This document shows positions 15,213 through 52,875 of a stretch of DNA of 64,000 nucleotides, piece by piece. A program made the position numbers and the translations under genes. The DNA comes from Aurelia coerulea (taxonomy: Eukaryota; Cnidaria; Scyphozoa; Semaeostomeae; Ulmaridae): assembly GCA_039566865.1 (NCBI GenBank), contig CM076949.1, positions 16,468,501-16,532,500 on the forward strand, read 5' to 3'. How positions within the stretch are numbered: the first letter of the stretch is position 1; the number at the start of each line of letters is the position of its first letter. The notes below the pieces were generated by a model. The model had not been told where the DNA came from, searched no databases, and worked only from the letters and a program-made list of their open reading frames with translations.

Positions 15213-15218
15213 ATTCTG
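15213..15218. repeat. Six-base duplication at the left edge of the inner palindrome
   Basis: ATTCTG here and at 52653-52658 (CAGAAT in the BEL sense) is present once in the expected uninterrupted gene, and sits at each edge of the inserted 37.4-kb block. It resembles a target-site duplication. At the right edge seven extra bases (ACGCATC, 52646-52652) lie between arm and duplication. Confidence 0.65.
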
Positions 15219-16140
15219 GGTCAGTGGCGCTTAGTGGCCAAATGCTTTTTGCATGTGTTTTGTTAAGCTTTAAAGCCAAAAGCCGTTATAGCCTATTGGT
15301 TTTATGTGTTGTATCATTTTCATACTTAACTGGAAGCCAAAATAGAGTTTTGGCGAATCATTTTATTCCTTCATAGCTCGCACATGATATTTGGAATATC
15401 CAAGCCAACAAAATTCGTCAATAACATGCTAAGATAGTCTTTCGGTAAAATTGTTTCCAGAAAAATGTCAAATTAGGTATTCGAGGGAAATTTCACAAAA
15501 AAAGTATAGCTTTAACGGTTTCAAACCTTGAAGGACAAGAAGCAAAATGCAAAAAGCCATTAAGCGGAAGTTCTTCATTGCAGTCGCGTGTCAAATTCAG
15601 GGGGTTATTTCATGCCTTTCGTGATTTGCATTTTATTTGAAGATTTATCACGCACAGAGCACCAGCAGGAGACTATTGCTACTTCAATGATTTTCATTCT
15701 GTGAAGAATTTCTCAGGATCTTATATATTGTTGGTGGACAGTGTTCGAATAATACACATTATGATATGATGTCTATCATTGTCGTCCTTGATCTGGGGGT
15801 GGGAAAGGGTAAAGTTGTTTTTGCCCCTCCCCAAAAATGTGATGATTTCTCGTTTCTCCCCTCAAAGAATTTCAGTTTCTCCCTTCTCCCACGGATATTT
15901 CAATCTACCTTCATTTCAAAATTTAATCTTGTTTTTATGCATTTTCTTTCAAACACCCAACTGGTTGGAAGATTGACGAATTTTAAGATATATAATTCAA
16001 GTCAATGTGCATCCAATCCAAGGAATGGTTAACCAACAGGCTTGATAACAGAAATAATATGATTCTGAAACAACGAAGATCGCCAAAATATCGTATTGCT
16101 GAGTACTGGAAAACTTTTTTTTTATATATATTATCAATTA
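15219..16140. other. Inner arm end, no gene
   Basis: AT-rich sequence without a recognisable gene. At 15997-16046 lies a single diverged unit of the 68-bp tandem repeat found at 19430-20940 (shared words: TTCAAGTCAAT, GGAATG.TTAACCAA, GGCTTGAT). Confidence 0.45.
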
Positions 16141-16170
16141 AAATTTACAAACTCAACAAGTACATCTACT

Positions 16171-16228
16171 GTGCCTATCATGGCGGGAATAGACACTAGG
16201 TCATCGGAGTTCCCACCATGAAAGGCAC
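16171..16228 (-). repeat. Structured retroposon tail hairpin, type i (left arm)
   Basis: The minus strand forms a 19-position stem: GTGCCT, then TCATGG, then GGGAA, pairing with TTCCC, CCATGA and AGGCAC, with one mismatch and one G-T pair. The loop holds GATGACC and GTGTCT. An A-run follows about 45 bases later. Its fold and loop match the type ii tail at 12728-12783, while the outer stem bases differ in a compensated way. Likely the 3' tail of a LINE or SINE. Confidence 0.65.
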
Positions 16229-16369
16229 TTACAATTCAAAAATTACAATATACTGAACGAAAAAACAACAAACTAAAAGAAAAAGTTAATGTCTGTCTCA
16301 CATTTGATGTCAGGCAATGACATCAAAACATTTTATAATTTGGGAGAAAATAGATGCAAGGCAGTTAAC

Positions 16370-16520
16370 AGAGGGCCCTACGCGCGGACAAACAACCGCC
16401 GCCCCTCGCCACACGTGCCACCCCCACCGGGATAACACATGAGACTAAAGGCCAGCAGCCGCCCATCCACACAGCAGGACCCCATCCACCCACCACCCCG
16501 CACCCTAAGATGGAAAACTT
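16370..16520. other. GC-rich block upstream of the retroposon tail
   Basis: A C-rich plus strand (CCGCCGCCCC, CCACCCACCACCCCG) in an otherwise AT-rich arm. Minus-strand frames across it are open for 74-77 residues but match no family I know. Its position upstream of the tail at 16171-16228 suggests it is the last coding or UTR part of the same retroposon; this is inference. Confidence 0.35.
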
Positions 16521-17166
16521 TTGTCTTGGAATCCAAAGGTACTTCTTGCTTGTTTTGCTGTTCGCAAAATATTCCTGAGGTGATCGATTCGCATTCACTC
16601 AAAGGGCAAACTTTCAGAAAATCTTATGGAGCATTCGATTCTTTTCAAGAAAACTCTTTGAAGCCTTTTCTTTTCTTATTGGATTTTCAAGAGTGATTTG
16701 CTCCTTACAATTGATCACACGGTTTGCTCATCCCTTTAAAATGTTTTGATGTGTTTGGACTGGAAAGAATTTTTAATGCTAGTGGTATAATACCGTAACA
16801 TAACTTGCACTTAAAACAATGTCAGAAAAGTTGCTATCACTGTACATTGTCGAAACATTTTTAAGTGCAAAAAGTTTCTTTGCTTTCCAAATTCAGGTAG
16901 GGTGTGGTTTTTTTCCGAAACATGGAGCTAGCCGTTTCTGTTACTTGAAACAACTTATGAGTGTAATCTAATGGAATTGTTACAGATTCATTGCCTGAAG
17001 CCAAAAATAATCAATATTTTGAACCTGGAATCTGAGTTTCTCTATGCAGTGCAGTCATTTCTATGGCAACAACTTCCCATATGCTTGAGTTTCGAAAGTT
17101 AAGAAACCGTGCTAAAAACAATTATAAAAACTCGTAACGCATTTCTATCTTGTCGAAATAATTCAA
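16521..17166. other. Unassigned stretch with a decayed TTTCTTA-family fragment
   Basis: No gene. Around 16850-16960 the words AAGTTTCTTTG, AATTCAGGTAGGGT and CCGTTTCT recall the inner part of the TTTCTTA elements at 22618-22989 and 31608-32111, so a decayed fragment is likely. Confidence 0.35.
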
Positions 17167-17292
17167 ACATTTTAAAGGGGGAAGGGAGTACGGCCTCGTA
17201 ACATTTAAAACTTTTTGCAGAAATCGGCGTAAACATCGTTGGATTATTGATCGGGCAGCCCCTCCCTCAAATTTATCCCGTACGCTTATGAC
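17167..17292. mobile_element. Decayed hAT-like MITE fragment
   Basis: The sequence CGGGCAGCCCC...CAAATTT and the end CCCGTACGCTTATG resemble the right end of the small hAT-like element in the spacer (33614-33786). The other end is too diverged to define, and the boundaries are approximate. Confidence 0.35.
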
Positions 17293-17332
17293 AGTTTGAT
17301 TTTTGTCGGTAGGCCCCCTTCAGGAGGAGTGT

Positions 17333-17755
17333 ACACGTTTTTTTTATAAGAAACTTGGATCAGCACTTAGTACTAAAAGTTTCTTAATTTCGCATGAAAA
17401 TTTCAGTGTTTTAGTACTAAAAGTTTCTTAATTAGTTTCTTATTTTTTTGGGCCTAAAATTGCGGTATTGTTCGAAGTTGAGCCTTCTTCTCGAGAAAGG
17501 GCTTCCATTTTGCATTGACATTGTCATCAAAAAGAAGCCATGCACATCAAGGCAAAAATTTACCAATTTTGCAGTTAAAAGTCAAGAAAAGACGAATGTA
17601 CCTTTGTTAGAGAGACATAGAATAAGAGAGACATACAGAAATAAAGTTTTAGAGTTTCTTAACTGTTCTTGAGCGTAGTACTAGAGTTTCTTAAATTTTT
17701 GGTCATCGTAGTACTAGTTTCTTATAAACCAGTTTCTTATAAAAAAAAAACGTGT
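17333..17755. mobile_element. TTTCTTA-rich foldback element, copy A (left)
   Basis: The ends are inverted repeats: ACACGTTTTTTTTATAAGAA at the start and the complement ending AAACGTGT. Inside, close to both ends, GTTTCTTA recurs seven or more times, often preceded by AGTACTA. Such subterminal repeats usually bind a transposase. Seven copies of the family lie in each arm. The open frame at 17448-17672 recurs in copy F because the copies are similar, and there is no sign that it is a gene. Confidence 0.75.
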
Positions 17756-18148
17756 AGTGAATCACTCTTTCGAAAGGACGTATGAGATCTTTTCAAACGA
17801 TAGGATCTTTAAAGATTTTTCTTGAAAACAAACGGATTTTTGGCAAAGGTGTACGAGACTTTTATAGAGTACCCCTCGCTCCCTGCAGATGTTTGAGACT
17901 TTAAGGAAGTAATTTGCCCCTGAGAATCGATTACACGGTTTTTTTATAAGAAACTTGGATGAGCACTTTGCTAGTACTAAAAGTTTCTTAATTTCGCATC
18001 AAAATTGCAGTGTTTTAGTGGTAAAAGTTTCTTAATTATTTTGTTATTGTTTGGGGTCAAAAATTGTGTTATGGTTCGACGTTGGGTCTTCGTATCGACA
18101 AAGGGCTGTGATTTTGCATGATATTGTCACTACGAATAAGCCATGCAC

Positions 18149-18978
18149 TTTCTAAAAGCATGCCCGATCTTGTAAATATTTTAGAAAAAGAAACAGGAGT
18201 TGCCTTGTCCTGGTTGGAACAAAATGAAATGATTGCTAACCCTGAAAAATTCCATGCTATATTGCTCAGAAAAAACCGGACAAATACTAGTGGAGAACAA
18301 ATTAACATTAACGGCAAAATAATCAAATCTGAGGAGACTGTGAAACTTTTAGGCGTTACGCTGGATTATAAACTTGATTTCGACCCACATATTTCGAATC
18401 TTTGCAAAAAAGCTGCAGCACAATTAAATGTTCTTAAAAGATTAAAGTCGTTCATTGGCTGTAAAGAAAAAACGATTCTTGTTCAGAGCTTTGTATATTC
18501 TAATTTTGATTACTGTCCCTTGGTCTGGTATTTTTCATCTTCCAAATCATTACAGAAAATTGAAAAGTTACAAGAACGCGCTCTAAGATTTCTCTATAAT
18601 GATCATACCAGTTCGTATAACGATTTGCTTTCGAAGTCAGATAAATGCACAATGCTCATTGCTCGCCAAAGAGTCCTGTGCATAGAAATATTCAAAACAG
18701 TGAAACAGTTGAACCCACAGTTCATGCAAAACGTTTTTAAATTACGGTCATCAAATTATTCATTAAGAAATCCAAATGACTTAGCCCATGTTAGGCCTGG
18801 TCAAACGGCATTCGGGTCCGACAGTCTGATGTCTATTGGGCCACAGATTTGGAGTGGCCTGCCGGACGAGCTGAAAGCAGCAGAAAACTTGAAAACTTTT
18901 AGAAGTCTGATAAAACGGTGGGACGGACCCTCCTGTAGATGCAGTGCTTGTCAATGCCTGCCTAGTGTTACAAATTAG
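18149..18978 (+). pseudogene. LINE reverse transcriptase, C-terminal part
   Basis: About 276 residues of the region after the catalytic core of a non-LTR retrotransposon: KLLGVTLDYKLDFDPHI, the SNFDYCPLVW motif, RALRFLYND, and a Cys-rich end (CRCSACQC). The upstream RT motifs, including the catalytic aspartates, are absent by truncation, so it cannot be active. It is related to the fragment at 27825-28815 (same order of motifs, Cys-rich end), which suggests one CR1/L2-like clade. The Met codons before 18149 belong to the flank. Confidence 0.9.
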
Positions 18979-19147
18979 TGCCTGTTAGTGCAATTTAATT
19001 TTATGAGTTATAAAACAAAAACAAATTTAATTTACTTCCTATAGTTATATTCGATTTTGATTAGTTAACTTTGTATATATGTATATATGTGTATATATTG
19101 TTAGCTATAGTAGTTAATCGAATCAAAATAAATTTACAAACAAACAA
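18149..19147 (+). mobile_element. 5'-truncated LINE insertion (left arm only)
   Basis: 999 bp flanked by ATGCAC at 18143-18148 and 19148-19153. The right arm has the empty site (single GTGCAT near 49720). It ends in (ACAA)n, following AATAAATTTACAAAC. It contains only the last part of a reverse transcriptase frame and a 3' UTR with a (GTATATAT)n stretch. Target duplication, truncation and tail are those of target-primed reverse transcription. Confidence 0.92.
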
Positions 19148-19429
19148 ATGCACATTAAGGCAAAAAGTTATCAATGTTTTGCAGTCAAAGCTTGATATTT
19201 ACAAACGCACTGCCACGCGAACCGTGATGTACCCACTCTCATTCTAGAAATAAAATTTTAGAGTTTCTTAATTGTTCTTGAACGTAGTACTAGAGTTCCT
19301 TAAATTTTTAGCCATCGTAGTACTAGTTTCCTATAAACCAGTTTCTTACAAAAAAAACCTGCAAAGAACCTCGTGAATATTCTGCAAAATATTTCATATT
19401 TGCATCCAAGGAATGCTTTACCAAAACAA

Positions 19430-19573
19430 AGATGTGCCACTGTAAGTTAAGTCAATATTCATCTGAGGAATGCTTAACCAAAAGGCTTGATTCACAAAGA
19501 TGTGTCACTGTAAGTTAAGTCAGGTATCCATCTGAGGAATGCTTAACCAAAAGGCTTGATTTACAAAGATGTG
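19430..19573 (+). repeat. 68-bp tandem array, first part (left)
   Basis: Two units with consensus words GATGTGTCACTGTAAGTTAA, GTCAATATCCATCTGAGGAA and GCTTAACCAAAAGGCTTGAT. The array is interrupted by the hAT-like element at 19574-20389 and resumes at 20390. Confidence 0.88.
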
Positions 19574-20389
19574 CAAGGGCGCCGGAGCCACGGGGGCAGC
19601 AAAGTGCCCTTTCCTAAAAATGTATTTCAGAGAACTATTGATTAATCGCATCTGTTAGTTGGAACTTGGAAGTGAGTTGTTTCTCGTCCGCAGTCACAAT
19701 AATAGAACGATTCCTTCTGCTTTCAAGATTACCGTACGTTCGAAGGACAGTGGCGTCGCCACGGGGTGGTCCGGGGTTGACGTGTCGACGACAGTTTTCA
19801 GTCGACCACCGATGATATAATTTCTCGAAATCAGTCAAAAAGATTGGGGAGGGTAGATTTTAATTGACTCGAAACTATTGTGATAACTGGCCTTCCTCTT
19901 GAAATCTCAATTCCTTTATTAAAGATTTCGAGAAAGGCCTTAAATTTCAATTTCTAACCAAATCTTGTCCTTCCTCGTAAATAAATATATGATGTTCTTC
20001 TCTGTTTCTATATTTGTTGCACAAAAAGACCCGCTGTTGTAAAAAGAACTGCTTGAGATGGTTGCTTTTCTAGAAATATCGAAATAGATCAAATTAACAT
20101 AAAGGGCGTTCCCATCATGTTCTCCGAGTGTCTGAAGGGCGTTTCCCACGTTTTCCGAGGGTCTGAAGGGCGTGGTCAGGAGAATTGTTCTGGGGGCTTT
20201 GCCCCTCAGACCCTCTTTTACCTTGCCGCCTCAGCTTTTTGGGCTGGCGACACCCGTGTCGAAATAGATGTTGAGCACAATATCCTAAACGACGATTACC
20301 GATTATTTTCAACGGCAAATTTTGACACCCTAAGGTGTCCTTTCTGCGATTCCTGCCCCCGCCGCATCATGGAGCCTCCGGCGCCTCTG
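19574..20389. mobile_element. hAT-like non-autonomous element in the 68-bp array (left)
   Basis: 816 bp with inverted ends CAAGGGCGCCGGAGCC / CAGAGGCGCCGGAGG and an 8-bp target duplication AAGATGTG (19566-19573, 20390-20397). The length of the duplication and the CARNG terminal pattern are those of hAT transposons. No transposase frame is present. Its mirror is 48434-49301, so it was there before the arms were duplicated. Confidence 0.85.
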
Positions 20390-20940
20390 AAGATGTGTCA
20401 CTGTAAGTTAAGTCAGTATCCATCTGTGGAATGCTTAACCAAAAGGCTTGATTTACAAAGATGTGTCACTGTAAGTTAAGTCAGTATCCATCTGAGGAAT
20501 GCTTAACCAAAAGGCTTGATTCACAAAGATGTGTCACTGTAAGTTAAGTCAGTATCCATCTGAGGAATGCTTAACCAAAAGGCTTGATTCACAAAGATGT
20601 GTCACTGTAAGTTAAGTCAATATCCATCTGAGGAATGCTTAACCAAAAGGCTTGATTCACAAAGATGTGTCACTGTAAGTTAAGTCAATATCCATCTGAG
20701 GAATGCTTAACCAAAAGGCTTGATTCACAAAGATGTGTCACTGTAAGTTAAGTCAGTATCCATCTGAGGAATGCTTAACCAAAATGCTTGATTCACAAAG
20801 ATGTATCACTTTAATTTACGTCCATCCGTCAATATCCATCTGAGGAATGCTTAGCCAAAAGGCTTGCTTCATAAAGATGTGCCACTGCAATTCAAGTCAA
20901 TATCCATCTTAGGAATGATTAACCAAAGGCCTGATATAAA
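20390..20940 (+). repeat. 68-bp tandem array, main part (left)
   Basis: About eight 68-bp units, the last two diverged. Most units differ at one or two positions (CAGTATCC or CAATATCC; TTCACAAA or TTTACAAA). The right-arm array (47165-48433) has about 11 more units. Confidence 0.92.
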
Positions 20941-22485
20941 GTGAAGGTGCAAATTGAAATTTAGAAGATAGAGCATGTGCATATGGTACACAGTTATAGA
21001 CATGAACATGACAAAAACCCATAAGAATTCTTAAGAATTTTCAAGAATTATTAGTACATTGTGATGAGGATTTGTGAGCAATATGGAAGATTCTGTTCTT
21101 TTCTAACAACAATTCAAATGAGAATTCTTAGGGATAAAAATCATGTTAACATGTTAAGGCCTGTACTGAATCTTGGCTCATAAACAATTTTTCAGAGGAA
21201 GAAATCAATGAGAAAAAGAGACTGTGTCATTTCAGACCCAAAATCACACAATTATCATCTTAAATGAATACTGTACATATTTAAAATTTTAGCATTTGAT
21301 ACTTAACAAAACATGTGAGAACCCATATAGTCAAAGGTGGGTTTGGCATTGAACTTGCACTTATTTTGCAGCAAATAAGTCACACAGTTTGTAGCAAGTT
21401 TGTTTTGAATAAGTCTCAGATCAAGGTGTTACTTTACATAATGAAAAGCCACTGATCCATAAATTCCTATTCAACTTTAATGCAGCTATCATTTTATTGC
21501 CCTGACCCCACCTCCCCGGGATAGGCGGGGCTGATGCGGGGTCATTCACGTATTTCTCTTGTGAAAGTGAGCAATGTTCCCACCTATCGGGTCAACATTC
21601 TTCTGCCAATGGGAGGCGATAGCTCGTGCTTGTCCCCAAATAAAGCCCCAATTATTATGTTTTTGAGCTTTTGAGGAGAAACGACTCGCCCCAGAGTTTT
21701 CACTGCTTCATGGGCAATATCTTTCAGTGAACAGGAAGTGAATAGCCCTGCATCTGCTCTGCCTATCTACCGCTTTCTGCTTTTCTTCCTCTTATCTTAA
21801 TGTTACGATACGCAGGATGTGAAAAAACCGCGAGTTCAAGTGGTGGCCAATGAGATAAGAGCTCTCATACAACAAAAGATTCTTCAACTGTAATAAAAGC
21901 AGGCTGATGGCAATGATGACGTAATCTGTATCAAATTACACAGCTATTGTTTTCATAATCCAGATCACTAGGAACCAAAGAAATCAAAACTACAGTGTCT
22001 TCACTGACATTCCTGGAGACCTCTGTGGTTCCAACAGTTCTTGTGTAAATGCTGCCTCAGGATTGCAGCGAATCATTGCTGAAGGCACTGGAATTTCTAA
22101 TACAAATAGATATGTGCATGAAATAAATCACAAAGAAATGGAAAAAGTGTTTCTTTAGATCTATAAACATTGTTCAAAAAGGGATTAAGTATTTGCAAGA
22201 CCATCCAACACTTTCAGGATATGCAGTGCAGCAAACATCAGAATGTAACAAAATAACAAGCTTTTTCTTTTGAATGAAGTTACCATATTGATCACTTGCT
22301 GTGTCTTGTGCCATCACTAAAATCTTATGATGACAAAGATGTCCCCAACTTCTGTGTTTTCCCTGAGGAGCAAACAAAATTGATGCTTGAAAATGGTAAC
22401 AGATTGTTTTCTATTCAAGATATGGTTCTCATTCAATTCCTACCCTAACAAGATCCTCCCCTGGCAGTCCAGGGGTCAACAATGA
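20941..22485. other. Unassigned stretch between array and LINE
   Basis: No gene is recognised. A GC-rich block at 21500-21560 (CCCACCTCCCCGGGATAGGC) stands out. A minus-strand frame at 22174-22377 is open in both arms but has no family resemblance and no clear start or splice context. Confidence 0.35.
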
Positions 22486-23390
22486 GAAAAAATGGGAAAC
22501 ATAGTAAATAAAGGACACAGAACACTTGGTTTTCTGAAGAGAAATATTAGAATAGACTCTCAAAATCTACGTTCAAAGGCTTGCAAAGCTATTGCAAGAC
22601 CTACCCTAGAGTACGCTACACAAATTTTTTATAAGGAACTAAGGTCCAGGCTAGTAGGCAGTTTCTTAAATTTTTGGGCAACTTTGCCACCAAAAGTTTC
22701 TTATGGGTTTCTTATATCTAAATGCCAGAAGTGTAGAGTTAATTTTGTTTGTCTAAAGGGTTCCCAAATTATTTAGCAAGATCTCAAAGCAAGTAAATAG
22801 CATAATTAGCACTCAAAATAATGTTCAAAAGTTGCTATAACTGTACGGTGTCAAAACATTTTTGAATGTGATAGGAAAATTAAAACTGCAAATTTAGAAA
22901 AATTCCTTAACTAATTGAATTCAGGCAGGGTTGTTTCTTAACTTTCAAAAAATTGAGCCTACCGTTTCTTATAAAAAAATTACGTGCAGTGCAATATGGG
23001 ATCCTTACACAAAGAAAAAACATAAATATGCGATTGAGACGATTCAACACAAAGCAGCAAGGTACGTGACAAAGAGATACAAAGTATGCCAGTGTACATG
23101 AAATGTCGAAGGAACTTCAAGGGAACTCACTTGAGGAGACAGGGACAAGTCATGTTTTACCAGATACATCAAACCAAGTTGAAATAAAGAAAGATGCGTA
23201 CAGCAGGCAGTCATCCAATTCAAGACCATCTAAAGAAGCCTATAAGACACCAGGGACAGGCCCGCAATATTACAATTTTTCATTTTTCCCAAGAACAATT
23301 AAAGAATGGAATAGGCTCCCACAGGAAACAGTAGAGGTGAACTCATGAGTAGTCTTCAAAAATACTCTTGAAGTATAACTTTTTTTCTGT
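22486..23390 (+). pseudogene. Decayed LINE tail, split by a TTTCTTA element (left)
   Basis: Two pieces of a non-LTR reverse transcriptase tail are visible. The first has RTLGFLKRNIRI and ARPTLEYAT (22500-22620). The second has WDPYTKKKHKYAIETIQHKA (22985-23050) and then NFSFFPRTIKEWNRLPQETV (23270-23340). The foldback element at 22618-22989 sits between them. Frameshifts occur around 23090. The order and wording fit the region after the RT catalytic core, as in Rex/CR1-like LINEs. Confidence 0.82.
22618..22989. mobile_element. TTTCTTA-rich element, copy C (left)
   Basis: The ends read CACAAATTTTTTATAAGGAA and, mirrored, TTTCTTATAAAAAAATTACG. It lies inside the LINE tail and interrupts its coding sequence. 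Diverged from copies A and F; closer in its inner part to copy E. Confidence 0.65.
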
Positions 23391-23523
23391 TCTAAATTCT
23401 TTACAATTGATTAATGATTTAGATAATTTCAAACCATAGGACAACAGTGTAACCTCTTTTCAACTTGAAGGTTGATTTTTTAGGTATTTCACATGCAGGG
23501 GTCCTTTAATGATATGACACTGA

Positions 23524-23596
23524 AGGTGGTGTGGTAATCCTCTGACTTGCAGCCAGAACAGTCAGGCGGAGTGGGTTCAATACCCGGTACCACTTG
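23524..23596 (+). tRNA. tRNA-like sequence, probably a SINE head or tRNA pseudogene (left)
   Basis: GGGTTCAATACCC (23573-23585) fits the B box and T arm. AGGTGGT and ACCACTT pair as a seven-pair acceptor stem with one G-T. CTTGCAG can be an anticodon loop between TCTGA and CCAGA, with one mismatch. The T stem is short and the variable region unusually long, so it is not a functional tRNA. No CCA or second copy confirms a SINE. Confidence 0.45.
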
Positions 23597-24642
23597 AACG
23601 TCATGAAAAGGAGTCGTGGACTTGATTAGGTCTGTTCTATTTCTGCGATTCCAGCGCTTGGCGCTGAAAAACGCAACTTTACCTTCACCTTTAAACGTTG
23701 AGCTCTTAGTCTTATGTTTCATTCACCTCAGATTTTCACTGATTTTCATGCTCCAAAGTTTCATGTAGGGTGTATTTATAGTATGATGTTCATTGTGCTA
23801 TGATGTGTTTCCCTTTTCCTTTATTGTCTATAATTTTTCTTTTTTCTCTAAATTGACATAACCTTCTTTAATAAGTAGTCAATTATTCAAGTAGAAGTAG
23901 AACCAAATTTTTACACAAATGCCTGGTGTGGGGAAGATTCTGTAAGAAATGTGGGGGGAAAGGACACGAGCAAAGTGGGGAAAGCGGAGGTACTGTGCCC
24001 TGCCACATTGGAACTACAATTCATACATTCATGAAAGAAAGTGTAAGTTATGAAAGAGTTTATACATCACCTTGTTGATAAACGACTGGATTTGGCGCCA
24101 TCCACAACTTCTCTGCTGTGCTCCTTGCTTGTTGTCCGCATATACCATTCAGACGTAGATTCATCTTGAGAAGGAGAATGAGATTCAACTCAGAATCATA
24201 TTCAGCCTAGTATCCAATTTTTTTATGTTTCTTGTCAAACCCCAAGAAACCCTCTCATAATATTTTCTAATGATCATGCCTCAATATTTCTTTCTAGTTG
24301 ATTTGATTCTCTTGAGGTATCCTGCTCTTGATGATACCAAAAGTGAGATTTTACAAGAACCAAAACTGAACAAAACTAGAGGCGCCCTTGTCCAATATAT
24401 TAAACATGTTGAATGCTGGAGGCCATAGTTCCATATTGTTTGTTTTCACTTCACAACTACTGTACGTGAAACCCCAAAAGCTAGTAGGTAGCCTAGTTGC
24501 ATCCTTTTACCTTGTCAACAACTTGCGGTTTTTTGGATGGATTGCAGATGGATTCTCCCAACATATACTATGCGAGTGTACGCGCAGTTCAATTCAAGCA
24601 CCTCCCGCAAGAAAGTTCTAGACTTGCCCCAAGCGTGGCCCC
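23597..24642. other. Unassigned stretch, no gene
   Basis: No recognisable gene or repeat. At about 24361-24375 lies the empty site matching the LINE insertion found only in the right arm (42466-43696). Confidence 0.4.
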
Positions 24643-24889
24643 AATAGACCTTTTCGCTATTCTACAAAAGAGCCTGGATCGAGCTTTATTTTTATACGCG
24701 AGGCTCGATAGAGTGATGTTAAGAGCTTCTATCACTATTGTGCAAATTCGAAAATTCTACAAAGTGCACTTTGTAGAATTTTCGAATATGCACAATATTG
24801 ATAGAAGCTCTAACGCCACTCTATCGAACCTCGTGTATAAAAATAACGCTCGATCCAGGCTCTTTTGTAGAATAGCTAAAAGGTCTATT
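24643..24889. mobile_element. ATAGACCTTTT foldback MITE (left)
   Basis: 247 bp that is one long inverted repeat, centred on AAAGTGCACTTT near 24766. The ends are AATAGACCTTTTCGCTATTC and the mirrored GAATAGCTAAAAGGTCTATT. The two halves differ at few positions. The open frame across it is a by-product. Confidence 0.85.
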
Positions 24890-25014
24890 CCCGCTCGTGA
24901 GCTCGTCATGCCGAACAGCGAGCGAAGTGAGCTGGAAGGAACGAGTTTCGTCACTTTGTTGTGATGAGCAGAACTTATCGCAAATCTAGAACCTTGGTGC
25001 TGTGATACACGTAT

Positions 25015-26202: not shown

Positions 26203-26330
26203 GATCACAGAAATCTAGCTAAATGCAACTCAACCACCATACCAAGTCCATATTCGTAAAGTATCCTGTTCGCCGAGTCCCGTTCCTCTATTCTTTTGTT
26301 CTTTTGTTTGTATAGTAGCTTTTCGTAACA

Positions 26331-37725: not shown

Positions 37726-37734
37726 TCATTATCA

Positions 37735-40153: not shown

Positions 40154-40154
40154 T

Positions 40155-41818: not shown

Positions 41819-41937
41819 GTATCACAGCACCAAGGTTCTAGATTTGCGATAAGTTCTGCTCATCACAACAAAGTGACGAAACTCGTTCCTTCCAGCTCAC
41901 TTCGCTCGCTGTTCGGCATGACGAGCTCACGAGCGGG

Positions 41938-42184
41938 AATAGACCTTTTAGCTATTCTACAAAAGAGCCTGGATCGAGCGTTATTTTTATACACGAGGTT
42001 CGATAGAGTGGCGCTAGAGCTTCTATCAATATTGTGCATATTCGAAAATTCTACAAAGTGCACTTTGTAGAATTTTCTAATTTGCACAATAGTGATAGAA
42101 GCTCTTAACATCACTCTATCGAGCCTCGCGTATAAAAATAAAGCTCGATCCAGGCTCTTTTGTAGAATAGCTAAAAGGTCTATT
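41938..42184. mobile_element. ATAGACCTTTT foldback MITE (right)
   Basis: 247 bp, mirror of 24643-24889, with ends AATAGACCTTTTAGCTATTC / GAATAGCTAAAAGGTCTATT. As the element is itself palindromic it is nearly the same on both strands. Confidence 0.85.
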
Positions 42185-42692
42185 GGGGTCACGCTTGGGG
42201 CAAGTCTAGAACTTTCTTGCGGGAGGTGCTTGAATTGAACTGCGCGTACACTCGCATAGTATATGTTGGGAGAATCCATCTGCAATCCATCCAAAAAAAC
42301 CGCAAGTTGTTGACAAGGTAAAAGGATGCAACTAGGCTACCTACTAGCTTTTGGGGTTTCACGTACAGTAGTTGTGAAGTGAAAACAAACAATATGGAAC
42401 TATGGCCTCCAGCATTCAACATGTTTAATATATTGGACAAGGGCGCCTCTAGTTTTGTTCAGTTTCAGTTTCAGTTTCATATTTTAAAATTCCTCTACAT
42501 ACAATAACAATCAATACAAAATAACTAAAATACAACACAATAATGTAATTATCAAAACAAGACTAAGTAAATGGATTGCATGCAGGGGAATTTCTTGAGG
42601 AGGAACTCTCTCAGTAGCTAGGCTAATCGAGGAGAGAGCACCCCCTGTTTTTAAAGATGACTAATGAACTTGGAAAGACTTATTTTCGACTT

Positions 42693-43640
42693 CTATGACT
42701 GGTAATTGTTTTCAAAAAGAAAGGCTTTGAGTTTTCGACGAAAGCAACGAGAAGATGGTGAACTTTTTATATCAACGGGAATGTCATTCCAACACTTTGC
42801 TCCAAAATAGCGCACAGACCTGAGTCCATACTGCAGGGTATTTTTACGAGTTAAAAAAATGTTGTTCTTGCTAACTTGTCGTGTACTATGTTGATGAACA
42901 GATTCAACTAAGGGACAGGGCAAAATTTATTATATTACGTAGCCGGTGGAGAACAAAAATTCTTACAAAAAAATCTGCTCGCCCTGTATGAAATTATTTC
43001 CAAAAAACCAACTGCCCCGTCAACCCTCCCTTAAAAAATGTATCTGCCCCGTATTCATGAACAACAAATGTTGCATAGTACCACCGACGAATTAGCCAAA
43101 GACCATAACAAAATAAATTCTTGTCTTTACGAGACTTTGTCAACGAAGAAATCGACTTTGAAGATGAAGAGAAATGACTGATGAATCGTTCTTGCAAGTA
43201 ACTGACAAGGAAATTTTGCGTCATGTTCATACACTTCCTTGCAAGCATTTCTCAACTTGCATGATCACAATTTGTCCTCAAAATGAGCCATTTCATATTT
43301 CAAACTTCATCTTGAGCTTATAAAAAGGTACTGCCCGTTCATATTTGCTTTGTAAAAAGTGTGGACCCAGTTCTGTACAAGCTAAAAAAAGTAGTTGCCC
43401 CGTTACGTTTTGCACCGGCCATGTTATAAAATAAACTTTGCACTGTCCCTAATGCAAAGAAAGAATGAAAGCAGGAGGGGGAGATCTTATTAACACAGTC
43501 ATACACAAAACTGAGCAATTTCAGCTTAAAGAGATCATGCAGCTTCAAAATCTTCAAGTTAGAGAAAATTTGTCTAGCTGGAGAAGTAAAATTTTCAAAT
43601 GAGATTGCCCTTATCACCCTTTTCTGCAGCAAGAACACTG
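42693..43640 (-). pseudogene. LINE reverse transcriptase tail, split by a MITE
   Basis: Piece 1 (43452-43638) reads LLQKRVIRAISFENF and LHDLFKLKLLSFVYDCVN, the usual post-RT region of LINEs. Piece 2 (42693-42908) reads YGLRSVRYFGAKCWNDIP and ends with a basic stretch. The 538-bp element between them is flanked by TTA in the coding sense, and taking it out with one TTA leaves the two pieces in one frame. Truncated and inactive. Rex/CR1-like by motif wording. Confidence 0.87.
42912..43449. mobile_element. PIF/Harbinger-type MITE inside the LINE
   Basis: 538 bp with inverted ends GGGACAGGGCAAAATTTATT and GGGACAGTGCAAAGTTTATT (complement of the far end), and a 3-bp duplication TAA (42909-42911, 43450-43452). 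A three-base TWA target is the Harbinger hallmark. CCGGTG / CACCGGC extends the inverted ends to about 40 bp. No transposase. Confidence 0.82.
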
Positions 43641-43705
43641 GATTTATATGAGTTTCATATGTAAGACCCCAAACTAAAATACCATATTGAAGACTGGTTC
43701 AGTTT

Positions 43706-44477
43706 TGGTTCTTGTAAAATCTCACTTTTGGTATCATCAAGAGCAGGATACCTCAAGAGAATCAAATCAACTAGAAAGAAATATTGAGGCATGATCATTA
43801 GAAAATATTATGAGAGGGTTTCTTGGGGTTTGACAAGAAACATAAAAAAATTGGATACTAGGCTGAATATGATTCTGAGTTGAATCTCATTCTCCTTCTG
43901 AACATGAATCTACGTCTGAATGGTATATGCGGACAACAAGCAAGTAGCAGTAGCACAGCAGAGAAGTTGTGGATGGCGCCAAATCCAGTCTTTTATCAAC
44001 AAGGTGATGTATAAACTCTTTCATAACTTACACTTTCTTTCATGAATGTATGAATTGTAGTTCCAATGTGGCAGGGCACAGTACCTCCGCTTTCCCCACT
44101 TTGCTCGTGTCCTTTCCCCCCACATTTCTTACAGAATCTTCCCCACACCAGGCATTTGTGTAAAAATTTGGTTCTACTTCTACTTGAATAATTGACTACT
44201 TATTAAAGAAGGTTGTGTCAATTTAGAGAAAAAAGAAAAATTATAGACAATAAAGGAAAAGGGAAACACATCATAGCACAATGAACATCATACTATAAAT
44301 ACACCCTACATGAAACTTTGGAGCATGAAAATCAGTGAAAATCTGAGGTGAATGAAACATAAGACTAAGAGCTCAACGTTTAAAGGTGAAGGTAAAGTTG
44401 CGTTTTTCAGCGCCAAGCGCTGGAATCGCAGAAATAGAACAGACCTAATCAAGTCCACGACTCCTTTTCATGACGTT
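43706..44477. other. Unassigned stretch (right), mirror of 23597-24360
   Basis: No gene is seen. Confidence 0.4.
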
Positions 44478-44550
44478 CAAGTGGTACCGGGTATTGAACC
44501 CACTCCGCCTGACTGTTCTGGCTGCAAGTCAGAGGATTACCACACCACCT
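44478..44550 (-). tRNA. tRNA-like sequence (right)
   Basis: Mirror of 23524-23596, with the B-box complement at 44489-44501. Same reservations: probably a SINE head or tRNA pseudogene. Confidence 0.45.
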
Positions 44551-44683
44551 TCAGTGTCATATCATTAAAGGACCCCTGCATGTGAAATACCTAAAAAATC
44601 AACCTTCAAGTTGAAAAGAGGTTACACTGTTGTCCTATGGTTTGAAATTATCTAAATCATTAATCAATTGTAAAGAATTTAGA

Positions 44684-45588
44684 ACAGAAAAAAAGTTATA
44701 CTTCAAGAGTATTTTTGAAGACTACTCATGAGTTCACCTCTACTGTTTCCTGTGGGAGCCTATTCCATTCTTTAATTGTTCTTGGGAAAAATGAAAAATT
44801 GTAATATTGCGGGCCTGTCCCTGGTGTCTTATAGGCTTCTTTAGATGGTCTTGAATTGGATGACTGCCTGCTGTACGCATCTTTCTTTATTTCAACTTGG
44901 TTTGATGTATCTGGTAAAACATGACTTGTCCCTGTCTCCTCAAGTGAGTTCCCTTGAAGTTCCTTCGACATTTCATGTACACTGGCATACTTTGTATCTC
45001 TTTGTCACGTACCTTGCTGCTTTGTGTTGAATCGTCTCAATCGCATATTTATGTTTTTTCTTTGTGTAAGGATCCCATATTGCACTGCACGTAATTTTTT
45101 TATAAGAAACGGTAGGCTCAATTTTTTGAAAGTTAAGAAACAACCCTGCCTGAATTCAATTAGTTAAGGAACTTTTCTAAATTTGCAGTTTTAATTTTCC
45201 TATCACATTCAAAAATGTTTTGACACCGTACAGTTATAGCAACTTTTGAACATTATTTTGAGTGCTAATTATGCTATTTACTTGCTTTGAGATCTTGCTA
45301 AATAATTTGGGAACCCTTTAGACAAACAAAATTAACTCTACACTTCTGGCATTTAGATATAAGAAACCCATAAGAAACTTTTGGTGGCAAAGTTGCCCAA
45401 AAATTTAAGAAACTGCCTACTAGCCTGGACCTTAGTTCCTTATAAAAAATATGTGTAGCGTACTCTAGGGTAGGTCTTGCAATAGCTTTGCAAGCCTTTG
45501 AACGTAGATTTTGAGAGTCTATTCTAATATTTCTCTTCAGAAAACCAAGTGTTCTGTTTCCTTTATTTACTATGTTTCCCATTTTTTC
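44684..45588 (-). pseudogene. Decayed LINE tail (right)
   Basis: Mirror of 22486-23390. RTLGFLKRNIRI near 45540 and RTIKEWNRLPQETV near 44750 are both kept, and the TTTCTTA element copy C lies between. Confidence 0.8.
45085..45456. mobile_element. TTTCTTA-rich element, copy C (right)
   Basis: Mirror of 22618-22989. Confidence 0.65.
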
Positions 45589-47164
45589 TCATTGTTGACC
45601 CCTGGACTGCCAGGGGAGGATCTTGTTAGGGTAGGAATTGAATGAGAACCATATCTTGAATAGAAAACAATCTGTTACCATTTTCAAGCATCAATTTTGT
45701 TTGCTCCTCAGGGAAAACACAGAAGTTGGGGACATCTTTGTCATCATAAGATTTTAGTGATGGCACAAGACACAGCAAGTGATCAATATGGTAACTTCAT
45801 TCAAAAGAAAAAGCTTGTTATTTTGTTACATTCTGATGTTTGCTGCACTGCATATCCTGAAAGTGTTGGATGGTCTTGCAAATACTTAAATCCCTTTTTG
45901 AACAATGTTTATAGATCTAAAGAAACACTTTTTCCATTTCTTTGTGATTTATTTCATGCACATATCTATTTGTATTAGAAATTCCAGTGCCTTCAGCAAT
46001 GATTCGCTGCAATCCTGAGGCAGCATTTACACAAGAACTGTTGGAACCACAGAGGTCTCCAGGAATGTCAGTGAAGACACTGTAGTTTTGATTTCTTTGG
46101 TTCCTAGTGATCTGGATTATGAAAACAATAGCTGTGTAATTTGATACAGATTACGTCATCATTGCCATCAGCCTGCTTTTATTACAGTTGAAGAATCTTT
46201 TGTTGTATGAGAGCTCTTATCTCATTGGCCGCCACTTGAACTCGCGGTTTTTTCACATCCTGCGTATCGTAACATTAAGATAAGAGGAAGAAAAGCAGAA
46301 AGCGGTAGATAGGCAGAGCAGATGCAGGGCTATTCACTTCCTGTTCACTGAAAGATATTGCCCATGAAGCAGTGAAAACTCTGGGGCGAGTCGTTTCTCC
46401 TCAAAAGCTCAAAAACATAATAATTGGGGCTTTAACTGGGGACAAGCACGAGCTATCGCCTCCCATTGGCAGAAGAATGTTGACCCGATAGGTGGGAACA
46501 TTGCTCACTTTCACAAGAGAAATACGTGAATGACCCCGCATCAGCCCCGCCTATCCCGGGGAGGTGGGGTCAGGGCAATAAAATGATAGCTGCATTAAAG
46601 TTGAATAGGAATTTATGGATCAGTGGCTTTTCATTATGTAAAGTAACACCTTGATCTGAGACTTATTCAAAACAAACTTGCTACAAACTGTGTGACTTAT
46701 TTGCTGCAAAATAAGTGCAAGTTCAATGCCAAACCCACCTTTGACTATATGGGTTCTCACATGTTTTGTTAAGTATCAAATGCTAAAATTTTAAATATGT
46801 ACAGTATTCATTTAAGATGATAATTGTGTGATTTTGGGTCTGAAATGACACAGTCTCTTTTTCTCATTGATTTCTTCCTCTGAAAAATTGTTTATGAGCC
46901 AAGATTCAGTACAGGCCTTAACATGTTAACATGATTTTTATCCCTAAGAATTCTCATTTGAATTGTTGTTAGAAAAGAACAGAATCTTCCATATTGCTCA
47001 CAAATCCTCATCACAATGTACTAATAATTCTTGAAAATTCTTAAGAATTCTTATGGGTTTTTGTCATGTTCATGTCTATAACTGTGTACCATATGCACAT
47101 GCTCTATCTTCTAAATTTCAATTTGCACCTTCACTTTATATCAGGCCTTTGGTTAATCATTCCT
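45589..47164. other. Unassigned stretch (right), mirror of 20941-22485
   Basis: No gene is recognised. The frame at 45697-45978 is 26 residues longer than its left counterpart because of one base change at its end, which argues against constraint. Confidence 0.35.
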
Positions 47165-48433
47165 AAGATGGATATTGACTTGAATTGCAGTGGCACATCT
47201 TTATGAAGCAAGCCTTTTGGCTAAGCATTCCTCAGATGGATATTGACGGATGGACGTAAATTAAAGTGACACATCTTTGTGAATCAAGCATTTTGGTTAA
47301 GCATTCCTCAGATGGATACTGACTTAACTTACAGTGACACATCTTTGTGAATCAAGCCTTTTGGTTAAGCATTCCTCAGATGGATATTGACTTAACTTAC
47401 AGTGACACATCTTTGTGAATGAAGCCTTTTGGTTAAGCATTCCTCAGATGGATATTGACTTAACTTACAGTGACACATCTTTGTGAATGAAGCCTTTTGG
47501 TTAAGCATTCCTCAGATGGATACTGACTTAACTTACAGTGACACATCTTTGTGAATCAAGCCTTTTGGTTAAGCATTCCTCCGATGGATATTGACTTAAC
47601 TTACAGTGACACATCTTTGTGAATGAAGCCTTTTGGTTAAGCATTCCTCAGATGGATATTGACTTAACTTACAGTGACACATCTTTGTGAATCAAGCCTT
47701 TTGGTTAAGCATTCCTCAGATGGATACTGACTTAACTTACAGTGACACATCTTTGTGAATCAAGCCTTTTGGTTAAGCATTCCTCAGATGGATATTGACT
47801 TAACTTACAGTGACACATCTTTGTGAATAAAGCCTTTTGGTTAAGCATTCCTCAGATGGATATTGACTTAACTTACAGTGACACATCTTTGTGAATCAAG
47901 CCTTTTGGTTAAGCATTCCTCAGATGGATACTGACTTAACTTACAGTGACACATCTTTGTGAATCAAGCCTTTTGGTTAAGCATTCCTCAGATGGATATT
48001 GACTTAACTTACAGTGACACATCTTTGTGAATCAAGCCTTTTGGTTAAGCATTCCTCAGATGGATACTGACTTAACTTACAGTGACACATCTTTGTGAAT
48101 CAAGCCTTTTGGTTAAGCATTCCTCAGATGGATATTGACTTAACTTACAGTGACACATCTTTGTGAATAAAGCCTTTTGGTTAAGCATTCCTCAGATGGA
48201 TATTGACTTAACTTACAGTGACACATCTTTGTGAATCAAGCCTTTTGGTTAAGCATTCCTCAGATGGATACTGACTTAACTTACAGTGACACATCTTTGT
48301 GAATCAAGCCTTTTGGTTAAGCATTCCTCAGATGGATACTGACTTAACTTACAGTGACACATCTTTGTAAATCAAGCCTTTTGGTTAAGCATTCCACAGA
48401 TGGATACTGACTTAACTTACAGTGACACATCTT
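47165..48433 (-). repeat. 68-bp tandem array, main part (right)
   Basis: About 18-19 units of 68 bp, against about 8 on the left. Units alternate in small variants (GAATCAAGCC, GAATGAAGCC, GAATAAAGCC; GATACTGAC, GATATTGAC) and some variant orders recur, which suggests that blocks of several units were duplicated together. Confidence 0.93.
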
Positions 48434-49301
48434 CAGAGGCGCCGGAGGCTCCATGATGCGGCGGGGGCAGGAATCGCAGAAAGGACACCTTAGGGTGTCA
48501 AAATTTGCCGTTGAAAATAATCGGTAATCGTCGTTTAGGATATTGTGCTCAACATCTATTTCGACACGGGTGTCGCCAGCCCAAAAAGCTGAGGCGGCAA
48601 GGTAAAAGAGGGTCTGAGGGGCAAAGCCCCCAGAACAATTCTCCTGACCACGCCCTTCAGACCCTCGGAAAACGTGGGAAACGCCCTTCAGACACTCGGA
48701 GAACATGATGGGAACGCCCTTTATATTAATTTGATCTATTTCGATATTTCTGGAAAAGCAACCATCTCAAGCAGTTCTTTTTACAACAGCGGGTCTTTTT
48801 GTGCAACAAATATAGAAACAGAGAAGAACATCATATATTTATTTACGAGGAAGGACAAGATTTGGTTAGAAATTGAAATTTAAGGCCTTTCTCGAAATCT
48901 TTAATAAAGGAATTGAGATTTCAAGAGGAAGGCCAGTTATCACAATAGTTTCGAGTCAATAAAAATCTACCCTCCCCAATCTTTTTGACTGATTTCGAGA
49001 AATTATATCATCGGTGGTCGACTGAAAACTGTCGTCGACACGTCAACCCCGGACCACCCCGTGGCGACGCCACTGTCCTTCGAACGTACGGTAATCTTGA
49101 AAGCAGAAGGAATCGTTCTATTATTGTGACTGCGGACGAGAAACAACTCACTTCCAAGTTCCAACTAACAGATGCGATTAATCAATAGTTCTCTGAAATA
49201 CATTTTTAGGAAAGGGCACTTTGCTGCCCCCGCGCTGCCCCCGTACCACTAGGGCAACGGGGGCAACTGCCCCCGCTGCCCCCGTGGCTCCGGCGCCCTT
49301 G
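48434..49301. mobile_element. hAT-like element in the 68-bp array (right)
   Basis: 868 bp, mirror of 19574-20389 plus about 50 bp of extra GC-rich sequence near 49225-49285 (GGGGGCAACTGCCCCC). Target duplication CACATCTT at 48426-48433 and 49302-49309. Confidence 0.85.
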
Positions 49302-49445
49302 CACATCTTTGTAAATCAAGCCTTTTGGTTAAGCATTCCTCAGATGGATACTGACTTAACTTACAGTGACACATCTTTGTGAATCAAGCCTTTTAAGCAT
49401 TCCTCAGATGAATATTGACTTAACTTACAGTGGCACATCTTTGTT
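49302..49445 (-). repeat. 68-bp tandem array, outer part (right)
   Basis: Two units, mirror of 19430-19573. The second is shortened (AAGCCTTTTAAGCATTCC). Confidence 0.85.
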
Positions 49446-49507
49446 TTGGTAAAGCATTCCTTGGATGCAAATATGAAATATTTTGCAGAATATTCACGAG
49501 GTTCTTT

Positions 49508-49934
49508 GCAGGTTTTTTTGTAAGAAACTGGTTTATAGGAAACTAGTACTACGATGACTAAAAATTTAAGGAACTCTAGTACTACGTTCAAGAACAATTA
49601 AGAAACTCTAAAATTTTATTTCTAGAATGAGAGTGGGTACATCACGGTTCGCGTGGCAGTGCGTTTGTAAATATCAAGCTTTGACTGCAAAACATTGATA
49701 ACTTTTTGCCTTAATGTGCATGGCTTATTCGTAGTGACAATATCATGCAAAATCACAGCCCTTTGTCGATACGAAGACCCAACGTCGAACCATAACACAA
49801 TTTTTGACCCCAAACAATAACAAAATAATTAAGAAACTTTTACCACTAAAACACTGCAATTTTGATGCGAAATTAAGAAACTTTTAGTACTAGCTAAGTG
49901 CTCATCCAAGTTTCTTATAAAAAAAAAACCGTGT
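49508..49934. mobile_element. TTTCTTA-rich element, copy B, uninterrupted (right)
   Basis: Mirror of 17933-19362 without the LINE. It shows the empty LINE site near 49720 (AATGTGCATGG). Confidence 0.75.
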
Positions 49935-50111
49935 AATCGATTCTCAGGGGCAAATTACTTCCTTAAAGTCTCAAACATCTGCAGGGAGCGAGGGGTACTC
50001 TATAAAAGTCTCGTACACCTTTGCCAAAAATCCGTTTGTTTTCAAGAAAAATCTTTAAAGATCCTATCGTTTGAAAAGATCTCATACGTCCTTTCGAAAG
50101 AGTGATTCACT

Positions 50112-50531
50112 ACACGTTTTTTTTTATAAGAAACTGGTTTATAAGAAACTAGTACTACGATGACCAAAAATTCAAGAAACTCTAGTACTACGCTCAAGAA
50201 CAGTTAAGAAACTCTAAAACTTTATTTCTGTATGTCTCTCTTATTCTATGTCTCTCTAACAAAGGTACATTCGTCTTTTCTTGACTTTTAACTGCAAAAT
50301 TGGTAAATTTTTGCCTTGATGTGCATGGCTTCTTCTTGATGACAATGTCAATGCAAAATGGAAGCCCTTTCTCGAGAAGAAGGCTCAACTTCTAACAATA
50401 CCACAATTTTAGGCCCAAAAAATAAGAAACTAATTAAGAAACTTTTACTACTAAAACACTGAAATTTTCATGCGAAATTAAGAAACTTTTAGTACTAAGT
50501 GCTGATCCAAGTTTCTTATAAAAAAACGTGT
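50112..50531. mobile_element. TTTCTTA-rich element, copy A (right)
   Basis: Mirror of 17333-17755. Confidence 0.75.
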
Positions 50532-51635
50532 ACACTCCTCCTGAAGGGGGCCTACCGACAAAAATCAAACTGTCATAAGCGTACGGGATAAATTTGAGGG
50601 AGGGGCTGCCCGATAGATAATCCAACGATGTTTACGCCGATTTCTGCAAAAAGTTTTAAATGTTACGAGGCCGTACTCCCTCCCCCCTTTAAAATGTTTG
50701 AATTATTTCGACAAGATAGAAATGCGTTGCGAGTTTTTATAATTGTTTTTAGCACGGTTTCTTAACTTTCGAAACTCAAGCATATGGGAAGTTGTTGCCA
50801 TAGAAATGACTGCACTGCATAGAGAAACTCAGATTCCAGGTTCAAAATATTGATTATTTTTGGCTTCAGGCAATGAATCTGTAACAATTCCATTAGATTA
50901 CACTCATAAGTTGTTTCAAGTAACAGAAACGGCTAGCTCCATGTTTCGAAAAAAAACCACACCCTACCTGAATTTGGAAAGCAAAGAAACTTTTTGCACT
51001 TAAAAATGTTTCGACAATGTACAGTGATAGCAACTTTTCTGACATTGTTTTAAGTGCAAGTTATGTTACGGTATTATACCACTAGCATTAAAAATTCTTT
51101 CCAGTCCAAACACATCAAAACATTTTAAAGGGATGAGCAAACCGTGTGATCAATTGTAAGGAGCAAATCACTCTTGAAAATCCAATAAGAAAAGAAAAGG
51201 CTTCAAAGAGTTTTCTTGAAAAGAATCGAATGCTCCATAAGATTTTCTGAAAGTTTGCCCTTTGAGTGAATGCGAATCGATCACCTCAGGAATATTTTGC
51301 GAACAGCAAAACAAGCAAGAAGTACCTTTGGATTCCAAGACAAAAGTTTTCCATCTTAGGGTGCGGGGTGGTGGGTGGATGGGGTCCTGCTGTGTGGATG
51401 GGCGGCTGCTGGCCTTTAGTTTCAAGTGTTATCCCGGTGGGGGTGGCACGTGTGGCGAGGGGCGGCGGTTGTTTGTCCGCGCGTAGGGCCCTCTGTTAAC
51501 TGCCTTGCATCTATTTTCTCCCAAATTATAAAATGTTTTGATGTCATTGCCTGACATCAAATGTGAGACAGACATTAACTTTTTCTTTTAGTTTGTTGTT
51601 TTTTCGTTCAGTATATTGTAATTTTTGAATTGTAA
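50532..51635. other. Unassigned stretch (right), mirror of 16229-17332
   Basis: Contains the GC-rich block at 51345-51490, and nothing with a known function. Confidence 0.35.
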
Positions 51636-51693
51636 GTGCCTTTCATGGTGGGAACTCCGATGACCTAGTGTCTATTCCCGCCATGATAGGCAC
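51636..51693 (+). repeat. Structured retroposon tail hairpin, type i (right)
   Basis: Plus-strand mirror of 16171-16228: GTGCCT ... AGGCAC stem, loop GATGACC...GTGTCT, then an AT-rich run and A-tract at about 51740-51750. Confidence 0.65.
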
Positions 51694-52645
51694 AGTAGAT
51701 GTACTTGTTGAGTTTGTAAATTTTAATTGACTATATATATAAAAAAAAAGTTTTCCAGTACTCAGCAATACGATATTTTGGCGATCTTCGTTGTTTCAGA
51801 ATCATATTATTTCTGTTATCAAGCCTGTTGGTTAACCATTCCTTGGATTGGATGCACATTGACTTGAATTATATATCTTAAAATTCGTCAATCTTCCAAC
51901 CAGTTGGGTGTTTGAAAGAAAATGCATAAAAACAAGATTAAATTTTGAAATGAAGGTAGATTGAAATATCCGTGGGAGAAGGGAGAAACTGAAATTCTTT
52001 GAAGGGAGAAACGAGAAATCATCACATTTTTGGGGAGGGGCAAAAACAACTTTACCCTTTCCCACCCCCAGATCAAGGACGACAATGATAGACATCATAT
52101 CATAATGTGTATTATTCGAACACTGTCCACCAACAATATATAAGATCCTGAGAAATTCTTCACAGAATGAAAATCATTGAAGTAGCAATAGTCTCCTGCT
52201 GGTGCTCTGTGCGTGATAAATCTTCAAATAAAATGCAAATCACGAAAGGCATGAAATAACCCCCTGAATTTGACACGCGACTGCAATGAAGAACTTCCGC
52301 TTAATGGCTTTTTGCATTTTGCTTCTTGTCCTTCAAGGTTTGAAACCGTTAAAGCTATACTTTTTTTGTGAAATTTCCCTCGAATACCTAATTTGACATT
52401 TTTCTGGAAACAATTTTACCGAAAGACTATCTTAGCATGTTATTGACGAATTTTGTTAGCTTGGATATTCCAAATATCATGTGCGAGCTATGAAGGAATA
52501 AAATGATTCGCCAAAACTCTATTTTGGCTTCCAGTTAAGTATGAAAATGATACAACACATAAAACCAATAGGCTATAACGGCTTTTGGCTTTAAAGCTTA
52601 ACAAAACACATGCAAAAAGCATTTGGCCACTAAGCGCCACTGACC
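51694..52645. other. Unassigned end of the inner right arm
   Basis: Mirror of 15219-16170. A lone diverged 68-bp unit lies at 51818-51868. No gene. Confidence 0.4.
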
Positions 52646-52650
52646 ACGCA

Positions 52651-52875
52651 TCATTCTGCTTGCCATCTTTTCCAGAAATGACCAATCGAACGTTGACGGT
52701 AAAGATATCTATCACTAATTGGAGCTTCACATTGCTTCCCGTGTGGTATATCTGGAACAGTTTCCAGGGCCCTTCCGAGTGCAAGATGTGCTGGTGTGAT
52801 AACTTGTCCATCCTTTATGCTTTCTTCAACAAAAGTCAAAGGCCTTGAATTAACCGTCGACTCAATTTCTGTCAA
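52651..52875 (-). pseudogene. BEL integrase end / start of DUF5641
   Basis: It reads TEIESTVNSRPLTFVEE, then TPAHLALGR and YRQRSIGHFWKRW, the usual run from the end of the integrase core into DUF5641 of Pao elements. It stops in the seven filler bases after the CAGAAT duplication. In another frame from the core that precedes it. Confidence 0.88.

Follow-up and report, generated by a model that had tools for sequence, protein, structure and literature searches.

The window studied here is a 64-kb stretch of DNA (G000:C7:16468501-16532500) from one genome of 574 Mb in 294 contigs. Its repeats, namely BEL, Ty3 and long interspersed nuclear elements (LINE), identify it as eukaryotic DNA. The pol gene of a BEL element, on the minus strand, is interrupted there by a near-palindrome spanning 15219-52645, the arms of which belong to a family of giant transposons with short terminal inverted repeats (TIRs) and are called here copies L and R. 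The features of the BEL gene around the insertion are the following:

14860-15216, minus strand, BEL pol downstream of the insertion, with Pfam DUF5641 (profile 20-94)
15213-15218, minus strand, left copy of the 6-bp target duplication in BEL pol (ATTCTG on the plus strand, CAGAAT on the minus strand)
52653-52658, minus strand, right copy of the target duplication of L (ATTCTG/CAGAAT)
52654-52938, minus strand, BEL pol upstream of the insertion, ending in ...GHFWKRWQAE

When the two flanks (ca. 200 bp and 156 bp) were joined by a script, they formed a single open BEL frame (...HFWKRWQAEYLPKLTVRQKW...) with one CAGAAT. The match of the downstream part to DUF5641 (positions 20-94 of 94) begins exactly at the cut, and the upstream piece alone gave no match in a Pfam scan. 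The uninterrupted 33-bp junction was found at 12 places in the genome, nine of them exact and three with one or two mismatches (reversed control, 0), each of these empty BEL sites, compared over those 33 bp alone, having one CAGAAT. No match of the BEL piece to viral contigs was confirmed. Hence, the joined frame and the alignment of the arms bear out what a first-pass annotation had proposed for this locus, a near-palindrome within one BEL pol frame between two CAGAAT, and insertion by transposition with a 6-bp duplication stands as well.

The arms (15219-33189 and 52645-33809) match each other in inverted orientation, with 99.1-99.35% identity in the four longest blocks and 95.8-98.5% in shorter and tandem-repeat blocks. 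The ca. 16.6 kb that could be aligned contain 72 substitutions and 25 gaps between the arms, which shows that the assembler did not simply copy a single sequence. The gaps include two private insertions with target duplications, one per arm. The first-pass description needs two corrections: seven extra bases (ACGCATC, 52646-52652) separate the right arm end from ATTCTG, and ca. 620 bp at the centre (33190-33808) are outside the arms. Long arms, a small and off-centre spacer and seven odd bases at one junction are all features that could come from an inverted duplication, i.e., an 18-kb sequence that fold-back or template switching made palindromic, or that was taken up as a linear palindromic amplicon, and that was then joined into BEL at a staggered break. 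The Anopheles gambiae inversion 2Rj offers a precedent, in which the arms measure 5.3 kb and an 8-bp duplication is possible (PMC1952172).

The copies found elsewhere in the genome tell a different story. The family has fixed termini (5' GGTCAGTGGCGCTTAGTGGCC...GGCCACTAAGATACACGCATC 3') with imperfect 21-bp TIRs, the outermost 21 bp of the two ends agreeing at 15 of 21 positions (counted by eye). A pattern search allowing up to three mismatches located 28 5' ends (25 exact, three with one mismatch) and 24 3' ends (23 exact, one with one mismatch); reversed controls gave 0 in both cases, and there were 0 matches to the end pattern in viral contigs. Pairing of the end coordinates produced 20 two-ended copies, R among them, with lengths of 17,595-29,910 bp. 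The eight 5' ends left unpaired are those of L, C21 (no 3' end within 28 kb), C15, C3:5356546, C1:31241816, C18:6692011, a stub in C19 and a miniature in C10. A search with the first 1,000 bp of the arm (40 of 596 candidates scored) gave at least 16 full-length matches at 99-100%, two of them in the window, and others at lower identity or length. Eight loci were extracted, two of which lie in the window; all begin to match the arm at the identical base, and the flanks read differ.

Eight single copies were read end to end (C8, C5a, C12, C18, C2, C1a, C7b and C1b), and each has one 5' and one 3' end; none contains the long inverted repeats within one element that characterize foldback elements. 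In C8 the arm continues into what is the “spacer” of the window, read the opposite way, and terminates in GGCCACTAAGATACACGCATC; the copy is flanked left and right by CCATAT. C12 has the same layout, its flanking repeat being AGTTAA. The spacer is therefore the 3' end of the element. The original idea of one giant element with ca. 18-kb inverted ends has to be abandoned, since single copies have only the 21-bp TIRs, and the end sequence GGTCAGTGGCGC, for which a genome search had been suggested, is the 5' terminus of this family of 17.6-29.9 kb. A motif at the inner and outer ends of the arm (GATGCGTG...CTTAGTGGCC), the score of which was reached in 8 of 5000 shuffles, was considered as the mark of a template switch or a circle and rejected; it is actually the TIR pair.

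Flanks were read for all 20 two-ended copies, and a perfect direct target duplication was present in 14, of 6 bp in 13 cases and of 7 bp in one: CCATAT, TACAAT, AGTTAA, GTGAAG, ATTTAC, AAGGAC, GTAGTAT (7 bp), TGATTG, AAGTAA, ATTTTT, GCAGAT, GGAACG, GAACTC and CATATC. Together with that of L, these 15 duplications have no fixed sequence, the only regularity being A or T at position 5 in 14 of them. There is also a 211-bp derivative with both family ends (G000:C10:4746083-4746293, L069), made of 50 bp of the 5' end and ca. 159 bp of the 3' end at 85% identity and without visible duplication.

With the family as a reference, the interior of the palindrome reads as follows:

15219-33189, plus strand, copy L from its 5' terminus to the point of 3' loss (by arm alignment and copy comparison)
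18143-19147, plus strand, private LINE-like fragment of L, 1,005 bp, with duplication ATGCAC; absent from R, C8, C5a and C12
33190-33191, no strand assigned, AT, two bases between L and R that may be the rest of the left target duplication of R (ACGCAT)
33192-52645, minus strand, copy R, complete, 19,454 bp, with its 5' end at 52645 and its 3' end at 33192
33192-33808, minus strand, apparent palindrome spacer, i.e., the terminal 617 bp of R; in C8 and C12 they come after the arm in this same sense
33606-33794, no strand assigned, insertion in the 3' part of R resembling a miniature inverted-repeat transposable element (MITE), with GACATGCG on both sides; boundaries by eye
42466-43696, minus strand, private insertion of R, ca. 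1.23 kb, with duplication AAACTGAAC
52646-52652, plus strand, ACGCATC, the last 7 bp (3' terminus) of L, located outside R and equal to the last 7 bp of the family

The 5' end of L adjoins ATTCTG, and L stops at the point equivalent to position 18,837 of R. Going by the sense of the spacer in single copies, R has this segment and L is without it, so R is complete and L is truncated at the 3' end. ACGCATC is found directly beyond R and before the second ATTCTG, which places R within L, at a distance of 7 bp from the 3' end of L. The right end of L within the pair amounts to only 7 bp of TIR, from which we infer that L was inserted first, intact, and R second. The ca. 1.23-kb insertion of R is absent from L and was not aligned in any of the other eight copies reaching that point. 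L and R also differ in the copy number of two tandem repeats inside the transposon, one of 68 bp (20390-20935 and 47140-48433) and one of 98 bp (29387-30366 and 36795-37689). A subterminal inverted repeat of ca. 420 bp (ca. 96%) is found near both ends of the element in L (17332-17748 and 32117-32534), C8 and C12.

A single clean 6-bp duplication encloses the L-R pair, as it would if the two had moved into BEL as a composite unit of 37.4 kb. We consider this very improbable, because the duplication is explained by L alone and the right end carries only 7 bp of the 21-bp 3' TIR. Among the listed termini, only C19 also has outward 5' ends on both sides, 25.3 kb apart, and its right 5' end is a 219-bp stub without matching duplication.

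Over the up to ca. 13.5 kb shared, L and R differ from each other by 0.449%, more than L from C5a (0.240%) or R from C18 (0.303%) and C1b (0.326%). Among the informative sites (two letters, at least nine copies present), 12 unite L, C5a and C12, eight unite L and C5a, and none unites L and R alone. A tree of 11 copies (L, R and nine others; 13,548 columns, C21 being represented in 38% of them) places L with C5a (100/98) and with C12 (100/99), and forcing L and R together costs 137.5 log units (approximately unbiased test, p 2.9e-90). The MITE-like insertion agrees with the tree: R and C8 carry it, and the nearest relatives of L, C5a and C12, do not. Judging from these sequence comparisons, L and R are to be regarded as independently inserted copies of different lineages and not as duplicates of each other. 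Fold-back duplication and capture of a linear palindromic amplicon are thereby excluded, unless one arm was rewritten throughout by gene conversion with other copies as donors. The two alternatives put forward in the first-pass annotation, a captured linear amplicon and a foldback element that had grown, both fall here, since either would have made the arms closest relatives. Besides, the outer ends are each the 5' terminus of the transposon, present at 26 other places, and the seven odd bases are the 3' terminus of the family. We are left with only a marginal chance for an inverted duplication, the least probable of the explanations considered.

An assembly error joining two copies should also be weighed, as near-identical 20-kb repeats on many contigs are difficult to assemble. 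It seems very unlikely, given that the outer junctions are exact to the base (the 5' ends of L and R, the last 7 bp of L and the duplication) and that L and R both have private insertions. Moreover, a similar junction of a 3' stub and a 5' end is independently present at C18:6692011.

All this leads us, with high confidence, to explain the palindrome as two copies of one giant TIR transposon family, one nested inverted in the other, tail to tail. L inserted into BEL pol on the plus strand, duplicating ATTCTG, and R, an independent copy of another lineage, now lies complete and reversed inside L, 7 bp from its 3' end. R probably entered by the usual reaction of the family, with the 6-bp target ACGCAT in the terminus of L itself, and this nesting would have created an almost perfect palindrome of ca. 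38 kb. A later deletion at the centre would have removed the other 3' part of L, ca. 610 bp in the coordinates of R or ca. 420 bp in those of the closest relatives of L, the difference being due to the lack of the MITE in the latter, and one target copy except AT. Long inverted repeats with short spacers are described as recombinogenic (PMC1952172), which fits such a central deletion.

Several observations weigh against this reconstruction. R has no direct target duplication today, with ATGCGT on one side and ATTTCT on the other, and the evidence for its entry by the usual reaction consists of the 2-bp remnant and analogy. The inner junction (33189/33192) is known from the assembly alone. As to the tree, it is limited to nine copies besides L and R, and the group of R with C8, C18 and C1b is unsupported (55/0). 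Finally, the two-ended copies without direct duplication are six of the 20 (C2, C12b, C19, C6A, C6B and R), and two of them, C2 and C12b, have no visible contact with another copy.

Contacts between family copies were found at four loci including the window, all of them inverted and two at 7 and 11 bp from a 3' end; as the flank read at some ends was no longer than 12-15 bp, this list may lack contacts with the interior of another copy. At C6 (G000:C6:19704849/19704856, L037) two copies, A and B, stand 5' end to 5' end with 6 bp (CAGCAT) between them. The outer flank of A is ATGCTG, the inverse complement of CAGCAT, and that of B is GACCTG, which matches neither. Compared with R, the first 455 bp of A are 100% identical and the first 548 bp of B 98.7%. 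At C19, a 25.1-kb copy has its 3' end directly next to a reversed 5' end, of which positions 219 to 1 are present, and at C18:6692011 a 200-bp 5' fragment adjoins 11 bp of a reversed 3' terminus, in the same arrangement as the right junction of the window. Under uniform insertion, the chance of at least three family-in-family events among 27 is ca. 3e-6, a figure that assumes independent events and a family total that is partly estimated. Uniform insertion does not explain the inverted contacts. A preference for the ends of the family itself and reactions between the ends of two elements could both account for them.

This second possibility provides the runner-up for the last step at our locus. 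In it, an aberrant (alternative) transposition reaction between the ends of two elements would have placed R and replaced the 3' part of L in one step. Contact with another family copy was seen in four of the six copies without duplication and in none of the 14 that have one (Fisher p 0.003), and the 6-mers around copy A at C6 are inverse-complementary (ATGCTG/CAGCAT). Such reactions are documented in maize Ac/Ds (PMC4270019). However, the composite insertions described for maize differ in shape, with transposon ends around duplicated flanking DNA (PMC4270019), none of which was seen here, and the AT remnant fits a normal insertion followed by deletion as well. We regard the one-step reaction as possible but the less probable course, and retain normal insertion of R into L plus loss of the centre as the preferred reading.

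What moves the family is less evident from its coding capacity. Open reading frames (ORFs) of at least 80 amino acids in the window and six copies number 281, in 81 groups. No transposase was detected among 63 ORFs scanned with Pfam (14 singly, including four arm ORFs, and 49 in batch), which were drawn from part of the 81 groups and leave out the longest copies (up to 29.9 kb), such as C4:25436350-25465721, C12:9773210-9803119 and C4:14099074-14124992. The batch of 49 contained zinc-knuckle families and a CUB domain, with one member each. The long shared ORFs are relics, one a piece of 316-339 amino acids with a reverse transcriptase domain and another of 398 amino acids whose protein relatives often have that domain; a search with the LINE-like ORF of the arm gave 1820 protein relatives. 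Among the ORFs scanned, this picture indicates that the family is probably non-autonomous and moved in trans.

Its fixed inverted termini and nearly constant duplication length are those of TIR transposons of the cut-and-paste type. A 6-bp target duplication, as found here, is typical of Polinton/Maverick elements; the Polinton/Maverick polymerase (PF03175) had two matches in the genome, neither inside a family copy, and no integrase was found among 59 ORFs scanned. A duplication of 6 bp also fits IS3EU. Dada elements have duplications of 6-7 bp, a fixed insertion site in small RNA genes and no terminal inverted repeats (PMC3706591). The duplication length of the family falls in this range, and Dada was discarded by the unfixed target sites and the 21-bp TIRs; an Rfam scan of the window, the one locus scanned, gave 0 matches. 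Thus, the 6-bp duplication fits Polinton and Dada, and the other features of both fail. It is conceivable, although doubtful, that these elements of 18-30 kb, with their 6-bp duplications, form a novel group of giant DNA transposons with a transposase, as yet unseen, that favours the termini of the family itself as targets; this would lead to repeated backward self-insertion with giant palindromes as a by-product.

Other repeats surround the structure. A plus-strand long terminal repeat (LTR) beside a BEL 5' region (60978-64000 and 12640-14866) is inverted with respect to BEL and its 3' LTR, to which it is 98.8-99.4% alike, and is probably a solo LTR or another nested BEL copy. Inside the right LTR there is a 1.18-kb repeat (99%; 62612-63788) with ca. 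10 bp duplicated (TTCATCTTGC), and a second copy of it lies at the left edge of the window (8-1183). A Ty3-like element (5406-9910) has an open frame of 1,286 amino acids and short LTRs of 134 bp with one difference.

The palindrome itself is ordinary nesting; the interest lies in a giant, apparently non-autonomous and self-colliding family. A very large natural palindrome is possible without any palindrome-forming replication error, two nested insertions being enough. The locus has also revealed an unusually large transposon family, with no transposase found among the ORFs scanned, and the four inverted collision loci offer material for work on end-to-end targeting and on how palindrome centres are lost afterwards. 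In the double Ds of maize, one Ds is inverted inside another. The L-R pair is similar in that an element copy is nested inverted inside another copy, and differs in that the copies are ca. 10 times longer, belong to different lineages and have R located 7 bp from the end of L. A search limited to the open-access literature found no report of nested inverted copies like those of the window. The 14.6-kb inverted-repeat insertions of the Anopheles gambiae inversion 2Rj resemble the window in their long near-identical inverted arms of degraded transposon pieces, their spacer and a short putative target duplication (PMC1952172). However, the authors of that paper state that no other genome copies of the unit were found, whereas the arms of the window are each a copy of a transposon that is dispersed in the genome and has defined ends. 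A giant size and short TIRs are shared by the family with Teratorn and other giant eukaryotic transposons; Teratorn has a piggyBac-like transposase and herpesvirus genes (PMC6431247), neither of which was among the family ORFs scanned. Foldback elements are like the window in having long inverted repeats around a spacer (PMC1952172), but in this family the element as such lacks the long inversion, the single copies read consisting of one arm each with 21-bp TIRs.

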